Source of the DNA: an uncultured Fimbriimonadales bacterium
GTDB lineage: Bacteria; Armatimonadota; Fimbriimonadia; Fimbriimonadales; GBS-DC
Reading direction: 5' to 3'
NCBI GenBank assembly: GCA_937992175.1
Contig: CALKLF010000008.1
Location: 1 to 64,000, forward strand
Length of the DNA: 64,000 nt
This document shows, piece after piece, positions 6,098 through 24,038 of this stretch (position 1 is the stretch's first letter; every line of letters starts with the position of its first letter). The notes under the pieces were generated by a model, which did not search any database, was not told the DNA's origin, and saw nothing but the letters and a program-made list of their open reading frames with translations. The position numbers were made by a program, and so were the translations under genes.

Positions 6098-7219
6098 ATG
6101 GCGATACGATTCAATGCGGAAACCCCGCGCTATGTGCAGGTGCGCCAGTGGGTCGAACGGCAGATTATCACGGGCTACTGGAAGTCGGGCGATGTGTTGC
6201 CGCCGGAACGCGCGTTAGCCGAGCAGCTGGGCGTCAGCCCCTTGACCGTTGGACGCGCCTTACAGGGGCTGGCAAAAGATGGAATCCTGAGGCGCAAACG
6301 GCGCGTGGGCACGGTGGTCGCCGAGAACCTGCCTCCGACGCTCTTCCAGCGGTCGTTTACCGTGATGGCGCTGGGATTGGGCGGCGGCACGCGCCAGCCC
6401 GTCGACTTCTACTTTAGCAGCATCCAGCGCAGCGTCCTCAATACACTCGCCCCACTGGGACTGCGCATCCTGTGGCTGGACTACCAGATTGACCAGATTG
6501 AGCGCGAGTTGCTCTCATCGGAGTTTGTGGGCGTGTTGGCAATCGCGCCTGCTGCAGAGCATATCACGCTGCTGGAAGACCTGTATCGTCGGGGCGTGCC
6601 CGTCGTGATTGTAGGCGCAAGCGCCGAGGAGTGGGAGACGCCCACGGTCGACGCTGATAACTACGGGGCGGCGCGTCAGGGCGCGGAGTATCTGCTGAGT
6701 TTAGGGCATCGACGGTTCATCGGATTATTCGGCGCGCTGGAGACCTTCAACTCACGCGACCGCTGGCGTGGCTTCCGCGACGCGCTGCAGGAGGCAGGCA
6801 TCCCCGAGTCACATGTCTGGACCTTCACCACGCCCTACGCCGATGAGGTGGATGAGGCAAACCGCGAAGCGATTCGCACGGTGCTGCGCCTGCCCGATGG
6901 TCCGACGGCAATCTTTGCGGGGGGCTACTACCTTGCGCTCTCCGCGTTGCAGACCGTGCATCAGGCGGGGATGCGCGTGCCTGAGGAGGTGTCGCTGATG
7001 GGCTTCGACGACCCGCCCTCCGCCGCGCTCGCCAGCCCGCCGCTAACCACTTTCCGCCAGCCGCTGGAGCAACTGGGCGCACGCGCCGTGCAGAAACTGC
7101 TAGACCTAGCCAAAGGTAAGCGCCCCGAGCCGCTGCACGAATACCTGCCGATCGATCTCATCGTCAGACAATCGACGGCGTCGCCTTGCACCGAGCAGCG
7201 CGCCGCAACGCTTGTGTGA
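6098..7219 (+). CDS. GntR wHTH + LacI-type periplasmic-binding domain transcriptional regulator (AraR-like architecture)
   Basis: YVQVRQWVERQIITGYWKSGDVLPPERALAEQLGVSPLTVGRAL then LacI-like sensor domain. Confidence 0.9.
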   Translation: MAIRFNAETPRYVQVRQWVERQIITGYWKSGDVLPPERALAEQLGVSPLTVGRALQGLAKDGILRRKRRVGTVVAENLPPTLFQRSFTVMALGLGGGTRQPVDFYFSSIQRSVLNTLAPLGLRILWLDYQIDQIERELLSSEFVGVLAIAPAAEHITLLEDLYRRGVPVVIVGASAEEWETPTVDADNYGAARQGAEYLLSLGHRRFIGLFGALETFNSRDRWRGFRDALQEAGIPESHVWTFTTPYADEVDEANREAIRTVLRLPDGPTAIFAGGYYLALSALQTVHQAGMRVPEEVSLMGFDDPPSAALASPPLTTFRQPLEQLGARAVQKLLDLAKGKRPEPLHEYLPIDLIVRQSTASPCTEQRAATLV

Positions 7220-18324: not shown

Positions 18325-18720
18325 TTAGTCGTCGAGATCCCACAGGTACTGTTCGGGATCCAGCACAAAGCCGCTGCACTGCGGGCGCGCGTCGCAGCCC
18401 TGCGTGAGCTGGGAGGGGCGATAGGATTTTACATGTCCATCCACGAAGGCAACAGTCGTCCGCTCATGCCGATGGAAGTGCCACGCGCCGCCGAACTCTA
18501 TCCATGTGTACCAGCCCGTAGCGGTCTGCAGACGCCAGCAAGCGGAGCGCGCGCCCGCGCCGCACGAGTTGCCTTGATAGTCGTACCAGCCGTTTGCGCG
18601 ACCGCTATCGCATTCGCTGCGCACAATGGTAAAAGTGTCCACGGTGGCGCGTTTGTTGTACCACCGGTTCGTATGCGCGTTGCGCATAATCGGGGAGAGG
18701 TAGACATAGTGCTTCGCCAC
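18325..18720 (-). pseudogene. 5'-truncated DUF1559-type pseudopilin (H-X9-DG C-terminus only)
   Basis: HRHERTTVAFVDGHVKSYR present; [19 protein letters not shown] absent; in-frame stop just upstream. Confidence 0.7.
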
Positions 18721-18827
18721 TCGTGATTATTTTGATGTTCCGCCCCCCTCCTGCAGGTCTGATAAGAGGACACGGTTCTGCCTCCACTGCGAACTTAGGA
18801 GGCGCATTTTCCCCCGCACTTTCTGAA

Positions 18828-18933
18828 CCTCACTCCCCACCCCCCTCCCCGTAAACGGAGAGGGGGAGCAGGCAGCGCGTAGCGCGCATTCCCCCATCTC
18901 CGCACGCGGAGAGGGGGGGCAAGGGGGGTGAGG
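18828..18933. repeat. Family A palindromic repeat (double hairpin)
   Basis: CCTCACTCCCC...CCCCTCCCCGTAAACGGAGAGGGGG ... CTCCGCACGCGGAGAGGGGGGGC..GGGGGGTGAGG. Confidence 0.85.
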
Positions 18934-19049
18934 TCGGAAAAAGCGGAGGCATGGGCGGTAGATTGTCCTCAGGTGGTGTACCCTTATCAGCTCGTGTAGG
19001 TTCTCCCTGCTTTGCGAGGGGAACCGATGTGCGCTTTCCCCTAAACCTC

Positions 19050-19098: not shown

Positions 19099-19171
19099 GG
19101 GCGAATAGCTCAGCTGGGAGAGCGCTTCCCTTACAAGGAAGAGGTCGCAGGTTCGAGTCCTGCTTCGCCCA
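19099..19171 (+). tRNA. tRNA-Val (anticodon TAC)
   Basis: GGGCGAA/TTCGCCC acceptor stem, loop CTTACAA, GGTTCGAGTCC T-arm. Confidence 0.95.
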
Positions 19172-20101
19172 CTGAACTCAAAATCGCCCCATCCTCTAAG
19201 ACCACTTCCCTGCGCTTCTTGGGAACGCCTTGTAGAGAACTACCTGCTCTACCGTCAAGCCACAAAAAGCCCTAAAACCGCCGAAAAATCGCGCCATCTG
19301 CTCCGCGCCTTCCTTGAGTGGAACCCCCCTGCGCCACAACAATTTCGGCGAGAGGATTGGCTCAAATTCGTGGCGAGCCTGCGTGAATCCAACTACGCTG
19401 AATGGACAGTCCACTCGGTTGCTCGCGAGGTTCGGCTACTCCCCAAGTGGCTGGAGCAAGAGGGCTTGCTCGGCTCCATCGTTCGGCAAGGCGACTTGCC
19501 CAAACCCCCCGCCCCAAACCCCAAACCGCTCGCGCCTGCCGAACTGCAAACTCTCCTGCTCGCCGCAGGCTCCAGCGAGGGATGGCTCGCACGGCGTGAT
19601 GTGGCGATTGTAGCCACTCTCGCGGATTCAGGGCTACGGCGCGGCGAACTGCTCCAGATGACGACAGAGCAGGGGTTGGTGGGTTCAGGCGTCGTGAAGC
19701 AAAAAGGAGGCTCCTTGCATCGGTTCACACTCGCGCCTGAAACCTGCTTGCTCGTTCGCGAGTACCTGCGAGCCATCGAGAAGGCAGGGTTCCCGCTGGA
19801 GCCGAACGCCCCGCTATGGCGAGCGCAGGATGGTAGACCCTTGACGCCGAATGGGCTAAGGCAAATCTTTCGCAGGTTCAGCAAGAGGCTCGGACAGCGC
19901 GTCTACCCCCATCAACTTCGAGCAACCGCTGCAACCCTGCGGTTAGCGCAAGGTGTGCCAACAGAGATTGTACGGCAAGGTTTGGGGCATAGGGACGCGA
20001 GAAGCATAGCCTACTACGCTCGCGTCGCCGAAACTGACGCCGACAGGCTCCTGAGGGAATCAAACCCGCTTCGGCTCATCAGCAGGAAACCGCGCGAGTA
20101 A
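19172..20101 (+). CDS. Tyrosine recombinase/integrase (phage-type)
   Basis: SAM-like core-binding region from ~19230; LRRGELLQM, HQLRATAATLRLAQG, LGHRDARSIAYYARV. ORF track begins at GTG 19370, but the frame is open back into the tRNA; start uncertain. Confidence 0.85.
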   Translation: MNSKSPHPLRPLPCASWERLVENYLLYRQATKSPKTAEKSRHLLRAFLEWNPPAPQQFRREDWLKFVASLRESNYAEWTVHSVAREVRLLPKWLEQEGLLGSIVRQGDLPKPPAPNPKPLAPAELQTLLLAAGSSEGWLARRDVAIVATLADSGLRRGELLQMTTEQGLVGSGVVKQKGGSLHRFTLAPETCLLVREYLRAIEKAGFPLEPNAPLWRAQDGRPLTPNGLRQIFRRFSKRLGQRVYPHQLRATAATLRLAQGVPTEIVRQGLGHRDARSIAYYARVAETDADRLLRESNPLRLISRKPRE

Positions 20102-20145
20102 GCCGAATAGAACCGTAGCCTGCTCTCTCGCGTTCGTGCCCCTCT

Positions 20146-21054
20146 GTGAACGCGAGGGGCAGGCTTACAGTGGAGTGTGTGGAGCCGATGTGGAAAGTCA
20201 GGCGCGAAATCGTAGAACTCTATACGACGCTGATGGAGATTCTGCAACTTGCGCAGGAACCGCCTGAAGTAGTGCAGATTCGCGCCGAATGGGAAGCCCT
20301 CTCCAACGCCTACCCGAACCCCGACGCCTCTTGCCATAAAGCCATAGAAGCCTGCTGCCGAAAGTGGAAACTCTGTGACGCGAACGGCGTGATTCCTACA
20401 GGGCTATTCGCCTTGCGATGTGAAGGGAAAACCGACCTGCGAGAAGCCGACTTCCGAATCTGGAGATTCGAGCCGTTAGACCGCCCCGAACTACCGTTCC
20501 ACCTTTGGGTAGACCCGCGAATCGAGAGCAAGCAGGAGTTTCTCGCCCGCGCGAAGGCAACTCTGCAGGTAGAGCGCGAACCCCAGCTGCTGGAGAAAAT
20601 ACACGAACTACCTGCCTCGCCTGTGGTGCGGATGGAATGGAACGCCTCGCGAGGCGAGTTTGAGCCGAAACCTGCAGGATGGCTTCAGAGGGCGCGAGAG
20701 GCGTGGAATCTCCCCCCTGAGTTCATGCCCGATGGCGTGCTAACCGAGATGATTCTACGGGTAGCCGAGTGCTACTACAATCACCTTGCGAAGCAGGTGG
20801 GGAGTTATGTGCCTAAGACAACGCGAACGCGAGATGAGATTCCTAATATGAAGCGAGGGACGCGCCAATACTACCTTGAAATGGCGTGGGTTCACCTGCT
20901 TCGCGCTGTCGGCTGGAGATGGGAACCCATAGCCGATTGGCTGTTTCGGCATGGCATAGTGGAGCGCGAGAGGAAACTCACAGAGGGTTATGCTCTTCTA
21001 CTTGCGAGGCTTCGCAAGATTCCTGAGCGATTGCGGAGAGAATTTTGGCTGTAA
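20146..21054 (+). CDS. Hypothetical protein of the integrated element
   Basis: Open frame between integrase and prim-pol; internal ATG at 20188 possible. Confidence 0.55.
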   Translation: MNARGRLTVECVEPMWKVRREIVELYTTLMEILQLAQEPPEVVQIRAEWEALSNAYPNPDASCHKAIEACCRKWKLCDANGVIPTGLFALRCEGKTDLREADFRIWRFEPLDRPELPFHLWVDPRIESKQEFLARAKATLQVEREPQLLEKIHELPASPVVRMEWNASRGEFEPKPAGWLQRAREAWNLPPEFMPDGVLTEMILRVAECYYNHLAKQVGSYVPKTTRTRDEIPNMKRGTRQYYLEMAWVHLLRAVGWRWEPIADWLFRHGIVERERKLTEGYALLLARLRKIPERLRREFWL

Positions 21055-21344
21055 AACCCCGAATTTTTGTGAATAAGACCACCCCCCCTGCGTTATTCAC
21101 AAAATCACCTGCCACACTCATAAGCGCTATGAGTGGACAGGTACTGCGCTGGCTATTCGATGGCGACAGGTGTGCACTGCTCGCCCTACGGCGAAGGGCT
21201 GAACGGCACTTCCGAAGCCCGCTGGGCGAGCTGAGGAGCATCGTCTATGAGGCGTTAGAGCCTGAGATTGAGGCTGTCAAAGCCGAACTCGCTGCCGAAC
21301 TGCCTGACGAGCCTGCTGAGCGCAAGGAGGTGAGCCTGCCGTGA
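21045..21344 (+). CDS. Small hypothetical protein of the integrated element
   Basis: Overlaps both neighbours by a few nt. Confidence 0.5.
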   Translation: MAVKPRIFVNKTTPPALFTKSPATLISAMSGQVLRWLFDGDRCALLALRRRAERHFRSPLGELRSIVYEALEPEIEAVKAELAAELPDEPAERKEVSLP

Positions 21345-23047
21345 GAGGAAACGCGAACCCCCGCCACGCCCGTTCAGGTTCAGGCGAAGCAGGGGCACAC
21401 ACCGCCGAGATTATACCCACACCGAGCTCGAATGACGCCCGTGATTGGGCAGGGTACTACCTCTCGCGCGGTTGGGCTGTCGTGCCGATTCCTACCCGCG
21501 AGAAAGCCCCCCGACTACAGGGTTGGCAGAATCTGCGAATCGCGAGTGATGAAGTAGGCGAGTACTTCGGAGCCAATTCTAACATCGGGCTAATACTCGG
21601 TGAGGCGTCGCACGGTTTATGTGATGTAGACCTTGATGACGCCTACGCCCGCCGATTAGCCGATGCCTTCCTGCCACACACTGAGCTGAGGAGCGGACGC
21701 CAATCGACAGGCGTGGCTCACTATTGGTACTATTCAGACTTTCGGCAGACGCGCCGATGGGTAGACCCCGAAGCGCAGGGCGAGCGAGCTTGCTTGCTTG
21801 AGCTTCGGGGGAAGGGGCAAACCATCGTGTGCCCGTCAGTACATCCATCGGGCGAGAAAATCGATTGGGTGAATGTGAGCAGCGAGCCTGCGCAGGTGGA
21901 CAGCGACACGCTGTTGCGTGCCTGCGAGCGACTGGCTGCTGCCAGCCTGCTGGCGCGTCGCTGGGCAGTAGGACAGCGCCACGAACTCGTGTTGGCACTT
22001 TCAGGCACACTCGCACGGGCAGGTTGGCGCGAGCAGGAGAGTGCCGAGTTTATTCGCGCGATTGCCCGCGCGGCAGGAGATGAGGAACTTGCCGACAGAG
22101 CGCGTGCTGTCGCCGACACCTACGAATCGATTCGGCGTGGTGAGCCTGCAACGGGATTGCCCACGCTGAGCGACTTGCTCGGCGAGCGCACGGTACGGAC
22201 GCTATGCGACTGGCTCCAGTTGGGACACCAAGAGAGTAGGCGTGTCCCAACTGTCCCAACTGTCCCAACTGAGGAGAGGGGTTGGCGGTTCCATCCCATC
22301 CGCTACTCGGAGCGAGAGCGAGAAGATGTGGAGTGCTTCGTGCCCAACCTACTCTACTCCTCAAAGTTGACGGTTTTAGCGGGGCCGCCTGGTGTTGGAA
22401 AATCCGTATGGGCACTCGAAGTTTCGTGTGTCCTGTCGGATGGAGGTGAACTGTGGGGACGCTACCCCCTTCCCATCGTGAGTACACTTTGGCTCGACTT
22501 TGACGAGGCGTTCGCCCGACTGCAGGAGATTGCTGATGCCCATTATGGCGCGAAGGAGCGACACATCTGGACGCTACCCCAAGAGGAACTCCTACCGCTG
22601 GGCTACGAAACCTACGCCGCCTACAGCCAACTCATTCGCGACCTGAACATCGGGTTGGTGGTGGTGGACGGGCTAATTGATTTTCTTGCCCTAAACGACG
22701 CGAATGACGCGAGCCAAGTTCGTGAGCGAATGGCTTGGCTTCGGGCGCTGGCGCGAGAAACTGACGCTGTAGCCCCGTTGGAACCTGATGAAGTAGCGCA
22801 GGTTCTCGAACTCTGGACGCTTGCGGAATCGAAGCGATTCCCGCGCCTTGTCATTCCTGACTACGCTGTCGTGGAGTGTGGCGCGTCAGCTTGGCGTCTA
22901 TTCCTTGAACGCGCTGCAGGTTCAGGCGCGATTGCCCTCGCGCGAAACCTGCTCCAGCAACGCCCGAAACCGAATGGGCAACCGAGCCTGTTCAGTACCG
23001 AAGGTAAAACCATCGACAGAGCCGATTGCGACCTTTTCGAGTCCTAA
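21341..23047 (+). CDS. Bifunctional primase-polymerase (prim-pol) with RepA-like AAA/RecA-fold ATPase domain
   Basis: GWAVVPIPTREKAPRLQGWQ, DVDLDD, GRQSTGVAHYWY; Walker A AGPPGVGKSVW; LVVVDGLIDFL. Confidence 0.82.
   Translation: MRGNANPRHARSGSGEAGAHTAEIIPTPSSNDARDWAGYYLSRGWAVVPIPTREKAPRLQGWQNLRIASDEVGEYFGANSNIGLILGEASHGLCDVDLDDAYARRLADAFLPHTELRSGRQSTGVAHYWYYSDFRQTRRWVDPEAQGERACLLELRGKGQTIVCPSVHPSGEKIDWVNVSSEPAQVDSDTLLRACERLAAASLLARRWAVGQRHELVLALSGTLARAGWREQESAEFIRAIARAAGDEELADRARAVADTYESIRRGEPATGLPTLSDLLGERTVRTLCDWLQLGHQESRRVPTVPTVPTEERGWRFHPIRYSEREREDVECFVPNLLYSSKLTVLAGPPGVGKSVWALEVSCVLSDGGELWGRYPLPIVSTLWLDFDEAFARLQEIADAHYGAKERHIWTLPQEELLPLGYETYAAYSQLIRDLNIGLVVVDGLIDFLALNDANDASQVRERMAWLRALARETDAVAPLEPDEVAQVLELWTLAESKRFPRLVIPDYAVVECGASAWRLFLERAAGSGAIALARNLLQQRPKPNGQPSLFSTEGKTIDRADCDLFES
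22217..22270. repeat. Iteron-like repeats: CAGTTGGGACAC inverted relative to GTGTCCCAACTG, then two more direct GTCCCAACT copies
   Basis: Perfect 12 bp inverted arms plus 3 direct 9-mers. Confidence 0.85.
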
Positions 23048-23188
23048 CCGCGAGGCAGGCAGGGTAGCACTCATCACCTCCCCCACGCTACCCGCCTGCC
23101 CCCTTCACGAAGTTAGACAAAAATCGGGCATTTTTGAGTTCAGGCGAGTCTAACTTCGCCTCATGCGCCGTATATGAACCGATGGGCA

Positions 23189-23583
23189 TGAACCGAGGCA
23201 ATAAACGCAAGCAAGCGCAGGAGATTCTCCTTCGCTGCCTTCGCGAAGGTGTGAGCCTGCCCGTCGCCCTTCGCGTGGCAGGCGTGCCTAAGGCAACATA
23301 CTACGATTGGCTGAAACGCTACCCTGCCTTTGCACAAGCAGTAGAGTGTGCTGAAGCCGAAGCCCTCAGTGCTATAGAGCGCGTCCTTTACATAACTGCC
23401 CTACAAGGCGACACGAAGTCGGCGATGTGGCTACTTTCACGCCGTTGCCCTGAAACCTATAGCTTGAAACACCAGCCTGCTGATGAGGATTATACAGTGG
23501 AGCTTTATGTCCCGCCCGACGACGGTTCCGTGCCCTACAAGATTCAGCTCGCTTCACAGCCCACGAACGGCACGAAATCCTGA
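23189..23583 (+). CDS. HTH protein resembling phage terminase small subunit (phBC6A51/homeodomain-like)
   Basis: KQAQEILLRCLREGVSLPVALRVAGVPKATYYDWLKRYPAFAQAVECAEAEALSAIERVLYITALQGDTKSAMWLLSRRCPETY. Confidence 0.65.
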
Positions 23584-23637
23584 AAAATTCGCCCCTGAAT
23601 CGGCAGGAATCTTTCGCCCTCTCGCGAAACAAAGAAA

Positions 23638-23664
23638 CGCCTACCTGTTCAGAACAGGTAGGCG
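23638..23664 (-). terminator. 13-bp perfect hairpin; minus-strand reading followed by TTTCTTTGTTT
   Basis: CGCCTACCTGTTC-A-GAACAGGTAGGCG. Confidence 0.6.
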
Positions 23665-23877
23665 AGGTGCTGTAGCAGGGTGCGCTGCCACAGCGCGAGA
23701 GAGTATACACCCTCTTTCGCGAAACTCCTGCAAGCCCCCTGCGAGAAGCCCCTCTGACACCATTCGGGTTTCCCTGTTTTCCTGAAAAACAGGGGCACGA
23801 GAGACCCCCAGACTCGTGTTGGGTTCGGGGTGGCGAAAGGGAGCGTGTGAGGCGCGATTCAGGTTCACGGAAATAAC

Positions 23878-23954
23878 TGGCGCGCCCGGAGGGATTCGAA
23901 CCCCCGACCCCCAGATCCGAAGTCTGGTGCTCTCGTCCGCTGAGCTACGGGCGC
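23878..23954 (-). tRNA. tRNA-Arg (anticodon TCG), CCA encoded
   Basis: GCGCCCG/CGGGCGC acceptor, CTTCGGA loop, GGTTCGAATCC. Confidence 0.95.
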
Positions 23955-23960
23955 AGGACA

Positions 23961-24038
23961 TGGTCGGGGCGCCCGGACTCGAACCGGGGACCTCTACCAC
24001 CCCATGGTAGCGCGCTAACCATACTGCGCCACGCCCCG
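23961..24038 (-). tRNA. tRNA-Pro (anticodon GGG), CCA encoded
   Basis: CGGGGCG/CGCCCCG acceptor, CTACC-ATGGGGT-GGTAG anticodon arm, GGTTCGAGTCC. Confidence 0.93.

Follow-up and report, generated by a model that had tools for sequence, protein, structure and literature searches.

The window analysed here is a 64,000-nt stretch (positions 1 to 64,000, forward strand) of contig CALKLF010000008.1, below called C8, from an uncultured Fimbriimonadales bacterium whose genome assembly, GCA_937992175.1, comprises 133 contigs. Positions 19099-23877 hold a tRNA-Val gene and an element of 4705 bp, for which open reading frame (ORF) and tRNA calls gave the order tRNA-Val, tyrosine integrase, two unknown genes, primase-polymerase (prim-pol)/ATPase, a gene resembling that for a terminase small subunit (TerS), and a structured right end. 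A preliminary description of this DNA had named every one of these parts, and all were present; its statement that capsid, portal and large terminase (TerL) genes are missing was borne out by domain scans of the element's proteins, which recognised no relaxase either, and no conjugation gene was seen. The locus had been placed at 19099-23600 (~4.4 kb), but its right end actually lies at 23877, against a tRNA-Arg/tRNA-Pro pair on the minus strand. Taken as a whole, the observations below are best and, in our judgement, quite likely explained by a degraded, hybrid member of a tRNA-targeting, phage-satellite-like integrative family in which the integrase start would be formed only on the excised circle.

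Gene content and a mobile element family

Sister elements, recognised by replicase and terS matches, lie on contigs C3, C45, C56, C73, C84 and C93 of the same genome, and others occur in further species. Since elements with the same gene set recur in this way, the set is well beyond chance. Complete sisters are found between repeated tRNAs, namely Arg(tct) (6.1 kb), Thr (6.3 kb), Arg(ccg) (6.7 kb), Lys and Leu (6.9 kb each), Ala (7.7 kb) and Gln (11.0 and 12.1 kb); judged by its genes, the window locus is a member of this 6.1-12.1 kb, tRNA-flanked element family of Fimbriimonadales (Armatimonadota). The replication module is exchangeable among members, being either PrimPol or CHC2/Toprim, with AAA_25 in all three of the full-length ones scanned, and some members carry DUF669, VRR-NUC and XRE genes. 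At tRNA-Ala(cgc) we also observed elements with terS fragments (L038 1282-2790 and L039 6436-8202) in which a long ORF, resembling a serine recombinase in the case of L038, ends inside the tRNA gene.

The target of the window element is tRNA-Val(tac) (19099-19172, plus strand), which provides the left attachment site (attL) and has the host promoter upstream. In all relatives with an assembled site the tRNA-Val array is unbroken, mostly as Val-Asp-Phe-Leu-Gly-tig, with tRNA-Val ending in GCCCACCAGCGAGCG ahead of tRNA-Asp. In the window genome, the element follows instead of the tRNA-Asp array, and the encoded CCA of tRNA-Val is lost (GCCCAC|TGAACTC where GCCCACCA is expected). Since the site is empty in relatives, the locus is mobile and not vertically inherited; comparison with element-free relatives, as proposed in the preliminary description, thus showed an unoccupied site and not the shared synteny that would have counted against its reading.

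Downstream of the integrase lie orf2 (20146-21054, plus strand; 302 aa), a single-copy gene in the genome, and orf3 (21045-21344, plus strand; 99 aa), homologues of which (44%) precede the primase in the elements on C3 and C56; no family was recognised for either product. The replicase (21341-23047, plus strand; 568 aa) matched Prim-Pol (6.7e-16) and AAA_25 (2.4e-17), in keeping with its earlier label of prim-pol/RepA-like ATPase, which had overlooked an in-frame deletion. Its relatives measure 794-861 aa, and by comparison with those of 812-861 aa the window protein has lost ~270 aa after residue ~476, so that the ATPase domain is fused, near nt 22770, to the C-terminal 80-90 aa. Most sisters that carry terS have a gene of ~400 aa ahead of it, and this too is missing from the window copy. 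No viral-contig relatives of the window primase were found. By sequence, the window copy is an internally deleted family member, and on our explanation it is degraded and no longer a self-contained unit; what had been taken for a naturally minimal satellite of ~4.4 kb is a deleted, hybrid-ended copy with larger complete relatives.

Hybrid ends and possible exchange with a second element

A direct right attachment site (attR) for tRNA-Val was sought within the window and not found there; it is located on contig C84. The window's left end is the attL of a tRNA-Val element (A), and its right end is the attR of a tRNA-Arg element (B), a swap that the preliminary description had missed while rightly noting a structured hairpin region there. 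On C84, the matching attR of A (the 3' part of tRNA-Val, then Asp-Phe-Leu-Gly-tig) stands beside a terS whose protein is 79% identical. On C8, the right boundary is a complete tRNA-Arg(tcg) (23878-23954, minus strand) next to its ancestral neighbour, tRNA-Pro(ggg) (23961-24038, minus strand), and the attR core of the tRNA-Arg element (23873-23931, minus strand) is a 59-bp match identical to the attL fragment beside intB on C84. In genome G009, an integrase 84% related to that of C84 adjoins the same tRNA-Arg fragment, which ties the C84 integrase to tRNA-Arg. Within terS, a 75-bp run (23358-23432, plus strand) is identical to the C84 element where mean identity is 83%, and none of 20,000 permutations matched it; this run is the probable exchange point between the two elements. 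In the sequence of events that we propose, the A and B ends would have been exchanged inside terS and the replicase deleted internally.

The hybrid, with its tRNA-Val left end and tRNA-Arg right end, could have arisen either by recombination (an inversion) or by misassembly. If the latter, intact A and intact B would have been cross-joined between contigs within terS, a possibility to which we give somewhat less than even weight and which, concerning the hybrid ends alone, is compatible with the remainder of our explanation. The exact 75-bp match amid 83% identical DNA, the presence of both reciprocal hybrids and the division of the assembly into 133 contigs all speak for such a chimera. However, inversion by exchange between related integrated elements is known as a natural event in Thermococcales (PMC8371274 Fig. 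13; PMC5495485), and an assembler more often breaks than cross-joins both copies. The C8/C84 join was also tested by synteny of the neighbouring GHMP-kinase and M28-peptidase genes, and gene order proved strongly scrambled between species.

Two further arrangements were observed at element ends. On C84 (L036 ~6840-6960), the right end of the tRNA-Val element bears TTGACA-18-TATACT directly ahead of the broken tRNA-Val copy, and transcription of the promoterless Asp-Phe-Leu-Gly-tig genes may now start from it. On contig C33 of genome G003 (L041, 1-1330), the tRNA-Arg that borders that contig's element is adjoined from the opposite side by another element, whose right end has a hairpin block too, an arrangement of tandem accretion.

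The integrase and its split start

The integrase body (19109-20101, plus strand) carries the catalytic motifs LRRGE, HQLR, LGH and YYARV and matched Phage_integrase (1.2e-14) and XerC/XerA-like profiles (1e-23 to 1e-26), confirming the family assigned to it in the preliminary description, where its split start had gone unnoticed. Its relatives on viral contigs were weak matches only (24-26%). The frame opens within the tRNA, and followed back into tRNA-Val it contains no ATG, GTG or TTG ahead of the conserved N-terminal domain. The integrase of G003:C33, at tRNA-Arg(ccg) in another species, likewise has no such start after the tRNA. When the ends of element A were joined in the anticodon loop, where the test assumes the crossover, an ATG was formed with AGGAGG 6 nt away, and the frame crossed the tRNA core into int. 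Joining the ends of G003:C33, both of which lie on a single contig, gave an ATG with AGGAGG 8 nt away. Dinucleotide-shuffled ends yielded such a start at frequencies of 0.0004 (element A) and 0.0012 (G003:C33), and an ATG with a 6/6 Shine-Dalgarno match was not found at any of eight further element ends, among them ends from elements in which int does have a start. Since the start is missing in the integrated state and regained on joining the element ends, the full integrase is probably made from the circle alone. In a third integrase (G011:C20, 45% identical) the frame likewise continues through the tRNA, where a D-loop GTG is its sole start. Contig C38, which carries TerS, was considered as the right end of this element and rejected, as it belongs to a tRNA-Thr element; the right end of G011:C20 is unassembled.

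In the arrangement proposed for this subfamily, the right end of the element would hold the ribosome-binding site, the start codon and ~45 first codons, and the left end the int body, the tRNA core forming part of the reading frame. Integration would therefore strip int of its start, and only the circle would give a full integrase. This appears to be a bacterial integrase beheaded by its own integration, for which the open-licence literature has so far reported a parallel in archaea alone, although an earlier bacterial example may exist; a 2021 review describes suicidal integrases as exclusively archaeal (PMC8371274). In those of SSV1, pTN3 and pT26-2 (PMC8371274; PMC5495485), attP likewise lies within the int frame at an overlap with a tRNA gene, integration parts the gene start from the catalytic body (as it would here, by sequence and with one single-contig case), and ends are likewise exchanged between related integrated elements. 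The window enzyme differs in being of the bacterial XerC/Phage_integrase type (PF00589) and not of the SSV-type family; the archaeal-lineage profile Phage_integr_3 (PF16795) did not match it, so that it is not a member of that family. The split in the window subfamily would also cost int no more than its ribosome-binding site and ~45 initial codons.

Packaging genes, helper candidates and classification

The terS-like gene (23134-23583, plus strand) encodes 149 aa from a TTG, with ATG starts further in also possible, and is of the Sf6 gp1/phrog_4102 type. Its helix-turn-helix (HTH) product matched phrog_4102, "terminase small subunit", at 2.6e-12, and phrog_4102 was the best match in all family members scanned (E 3e-12 to 7e-16). 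The AlphaFold model (mean predicted local distance difference test score 72; confident at residues 21-100) had chains of Sf6 gp1 as its five best PDB matches (E 0.02-0.15, probability 0.54-0.96), and its viral fold matches include annotated TerS at E <1e-3. Protein-level relatives sit 1-2 genes ahead of terL in phages vir249, HJTV-4 and PhiF3, and another belongs to a terS-terL-portal-capsid module in a prophage of genome G017. Since PHROG, fold and terL-adjacent context matches agree, the predicted identity as TerS is well supported, and the HTH gene placed earlier at 23189-23583 groups with TerS and not with transposases or regulators. The predicted fold of an HTH and a long helix is that of Sf6 gp1 (PDB 3hef, 4dzp), from which the window protein differs in sequence (~22% identity), in its C-terminus and in being encoded away from a phage head module.

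A block after terS (23600-23755, ~155 bp) forms an outer stem around two hairpins and is common to nine elements with differing target tRNAs, so that the hairpin cluster of the preliminary description is a real, conserved structure with compensatory changes, a covariation it had overlooked. In the consensus, 97% of cells are paired and 13 show double-sided changes; in sliding and shuffling controls, none of 500 shuffles reached the paired cells or the covariation score. The window block has a folding z of -5.0 and is absent from Rfam, a scan of which matched the tRNAs alone. It is a putative origin or packaging signal, and since one of the nine elements has no terS, an origin or a dual role is favoured.

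In the life cycle that these parts suggest for intact elements, the tyrosine integrase would recombine the circle into a tRNA gene, regenerating the tRNA; the primase (PrimPol or CHC2/Toprim), with its fused RecA-type ATPase, would copy the excised element; and the TerS homologue would let the TerL of a helper package it, with the right-end block serving as origin or packaging signal. Since a phage DNA-packaging gene is carried, the element probably travels in phage shells.

A helper prophage with TerL had been suggested as a check, and searches of the genome turned up no conventional prophage. A search with TerL_ATPase (PF03354) gave no match in the genome, while phrog_2 gave one orphan TerL and one weak match. 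The orphan TerL occurs in 18/18 genomes of the family. A capsid gene of the Mu-gpT type, accompanied by cement and protease genes, occurs in 15 of the 18 and in 63 of 101 genomes of the order; most family genomes hold the three-gene protease-cement-gpT cassette or parts of it, and within the genus the gpT capsid proteins of different species share 92-95% identity. On G000:C80 (51.2-56.1 kb; L140 7264-8559 and 9996-12108), the orphan TerL (Terminase_6N/6C) lies ~1.4 kb from a cassette that encodes a head-maturation protease, a cement protein and the Mu-gpT capsid protein, with ordinary genes around. The two could represent a retained particle system like a gene transfer agent (GTA) and are a candidate helper, their link to the elements being conjectural. 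That the TerS elements with self-splitting integrases are satellites of such a domesticated Fimbriimonadales particle, and not of an ordinary phage, seems to us improbable. On G017:C49 (~13.7-39.5 kb; L141, L190), an apparent prophage with an integrase 35% identical to that of the window and the above packaging module lies between two tRNA-Gln(ctg) copies; it is possibly a helper or a relative of the elements.

The preliminary description had proposed a satellite of the phage-inducible chromosomal island (PICI) type, of which the integrase-replicase-TerS set without structural genes stands, whereas PICI membership, given regulator and size, is not borne out. The family shares with PICIs and the Staphylococcus aureus pathogenicity islands (PMC6092414) site-specific integration, a terminal int, a primase/replicase, terS in some members and the absence of structural genes; its own integrase lies at an attachment site marked by tRNA repeats and by empty sites in relatives. 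Of the primase-then-origin arrangement, Prim-Pol/AAA_25 is present but deleted in the window copy, with the right-end block as candidate origin. In contrast to PICIs of ~15 kb, the window copy measures 4.7 kb and complete sisters 6-12 kb, in Armatimonadota; family scans recognised no Stl, AlpA or Xis among the window copy's five genes (XRE-type HTH genes occur in sisters), and no interference genes were recognised. The family also differs in its self-splitting integrase subfamily. A similarly tiny gene set of integrase, regulator and primase makes up the very small satellite PICMI (PMC10803314), which has alpA without terS, the reverse of the window element. The tRNA border and tyrosine recombinase of the window element are shared with tycheposons, in contrast to which it carries a compact replication/packaging set. 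Tycheposons reportedly occur in Prochlorococcus and Methylophilaceae, are bordered by tRNAs, carry a tyrosine recombinase and often large nutrient cargo, and are in part satellite-like. Tycheposons are cited in passages of PMC10872708 and PMC10803314.

Alternatively, the HTH protein could be a regulator and the element an integrative plasmid or integrative mobilizable element rather than a satellite. Pfam indeed gives HTH-only domains, with an Sf6_terminase match (5e-5) under its cut-off, and several complete family members have no terS match; yet the PHROG, fold and context comparisons all have TerS beside TerL as their best match, and neither relaxase nor conjugation genes were seen, so that we consider this unlikely. 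Slightly less probable still is an ordinary satellite of the PICI type, minimal at 4.4-4.7 kb and fully active, with int read from CTG 19172 and a working shortened replicase, for although the gene set, the int catalytic residues and the PICMI precedent (PMC10803314) suit it, no tRNA-Val attR adjoins, the right end is a tRNA-Arg attR, the replicase is ~270 aa short, and two int genes of the subfamily have no ATG, GTG or TTG after the tRNA while the third has only the GTG in the D-loop.

Several points weigh against the satellite-like, circle-start explanation that we prefer. The evidence is wholly in silico and from metagenome-assembled genomes, with reads, circle and particle not seen, and no helper was identified in the genome. 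The PDB matches of TerS are no better than given above, and for the right-end block the count of pairs with double changes is by itself unexceptional (reached by 99/500 shuffles). The tRNA-Val copy on C84 has a C-to-T change (a T-stem variant) that would place a TAG in the joined frame if the crossover lay 3' of the T-stem, and a weak int start at CTG 19172 is possible in place of a circle-only one. Misassembly of C8 and C84 through the 75-bp identity is also possible, in which case both A and B would be intact and joining the ends of A would be a direct test.

If our explanation is true, the range of TerS-type phage satellites would come to include Armatimonadota, and the element would provide an apparent bacterial integrase latch, with an integrated state that is hard to reverse and a frame running through a tRNA gene. 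Element escape through rescue in trans by sister elements would become testable, as would exchange between co-resident elements, reshaping of the chromosome and the formation of hybrid mobile elements.

Among minor features, GC content is ~57-60% inside the element and 61-65% immediately to its left. A 21-nt inverted repeat has its left arm at the left junction (19172-19192, plus strand) and its other arm upstream of terS (23123-23143), and is possibly an integrase or regulator site. The intergenic repeat at ~18707-19043, which recurs in copies 75-90% identical on many contigs both here and in relatives, resembles a miniature inverted-repeat transposable element or another dispersed GC-rich repeat.

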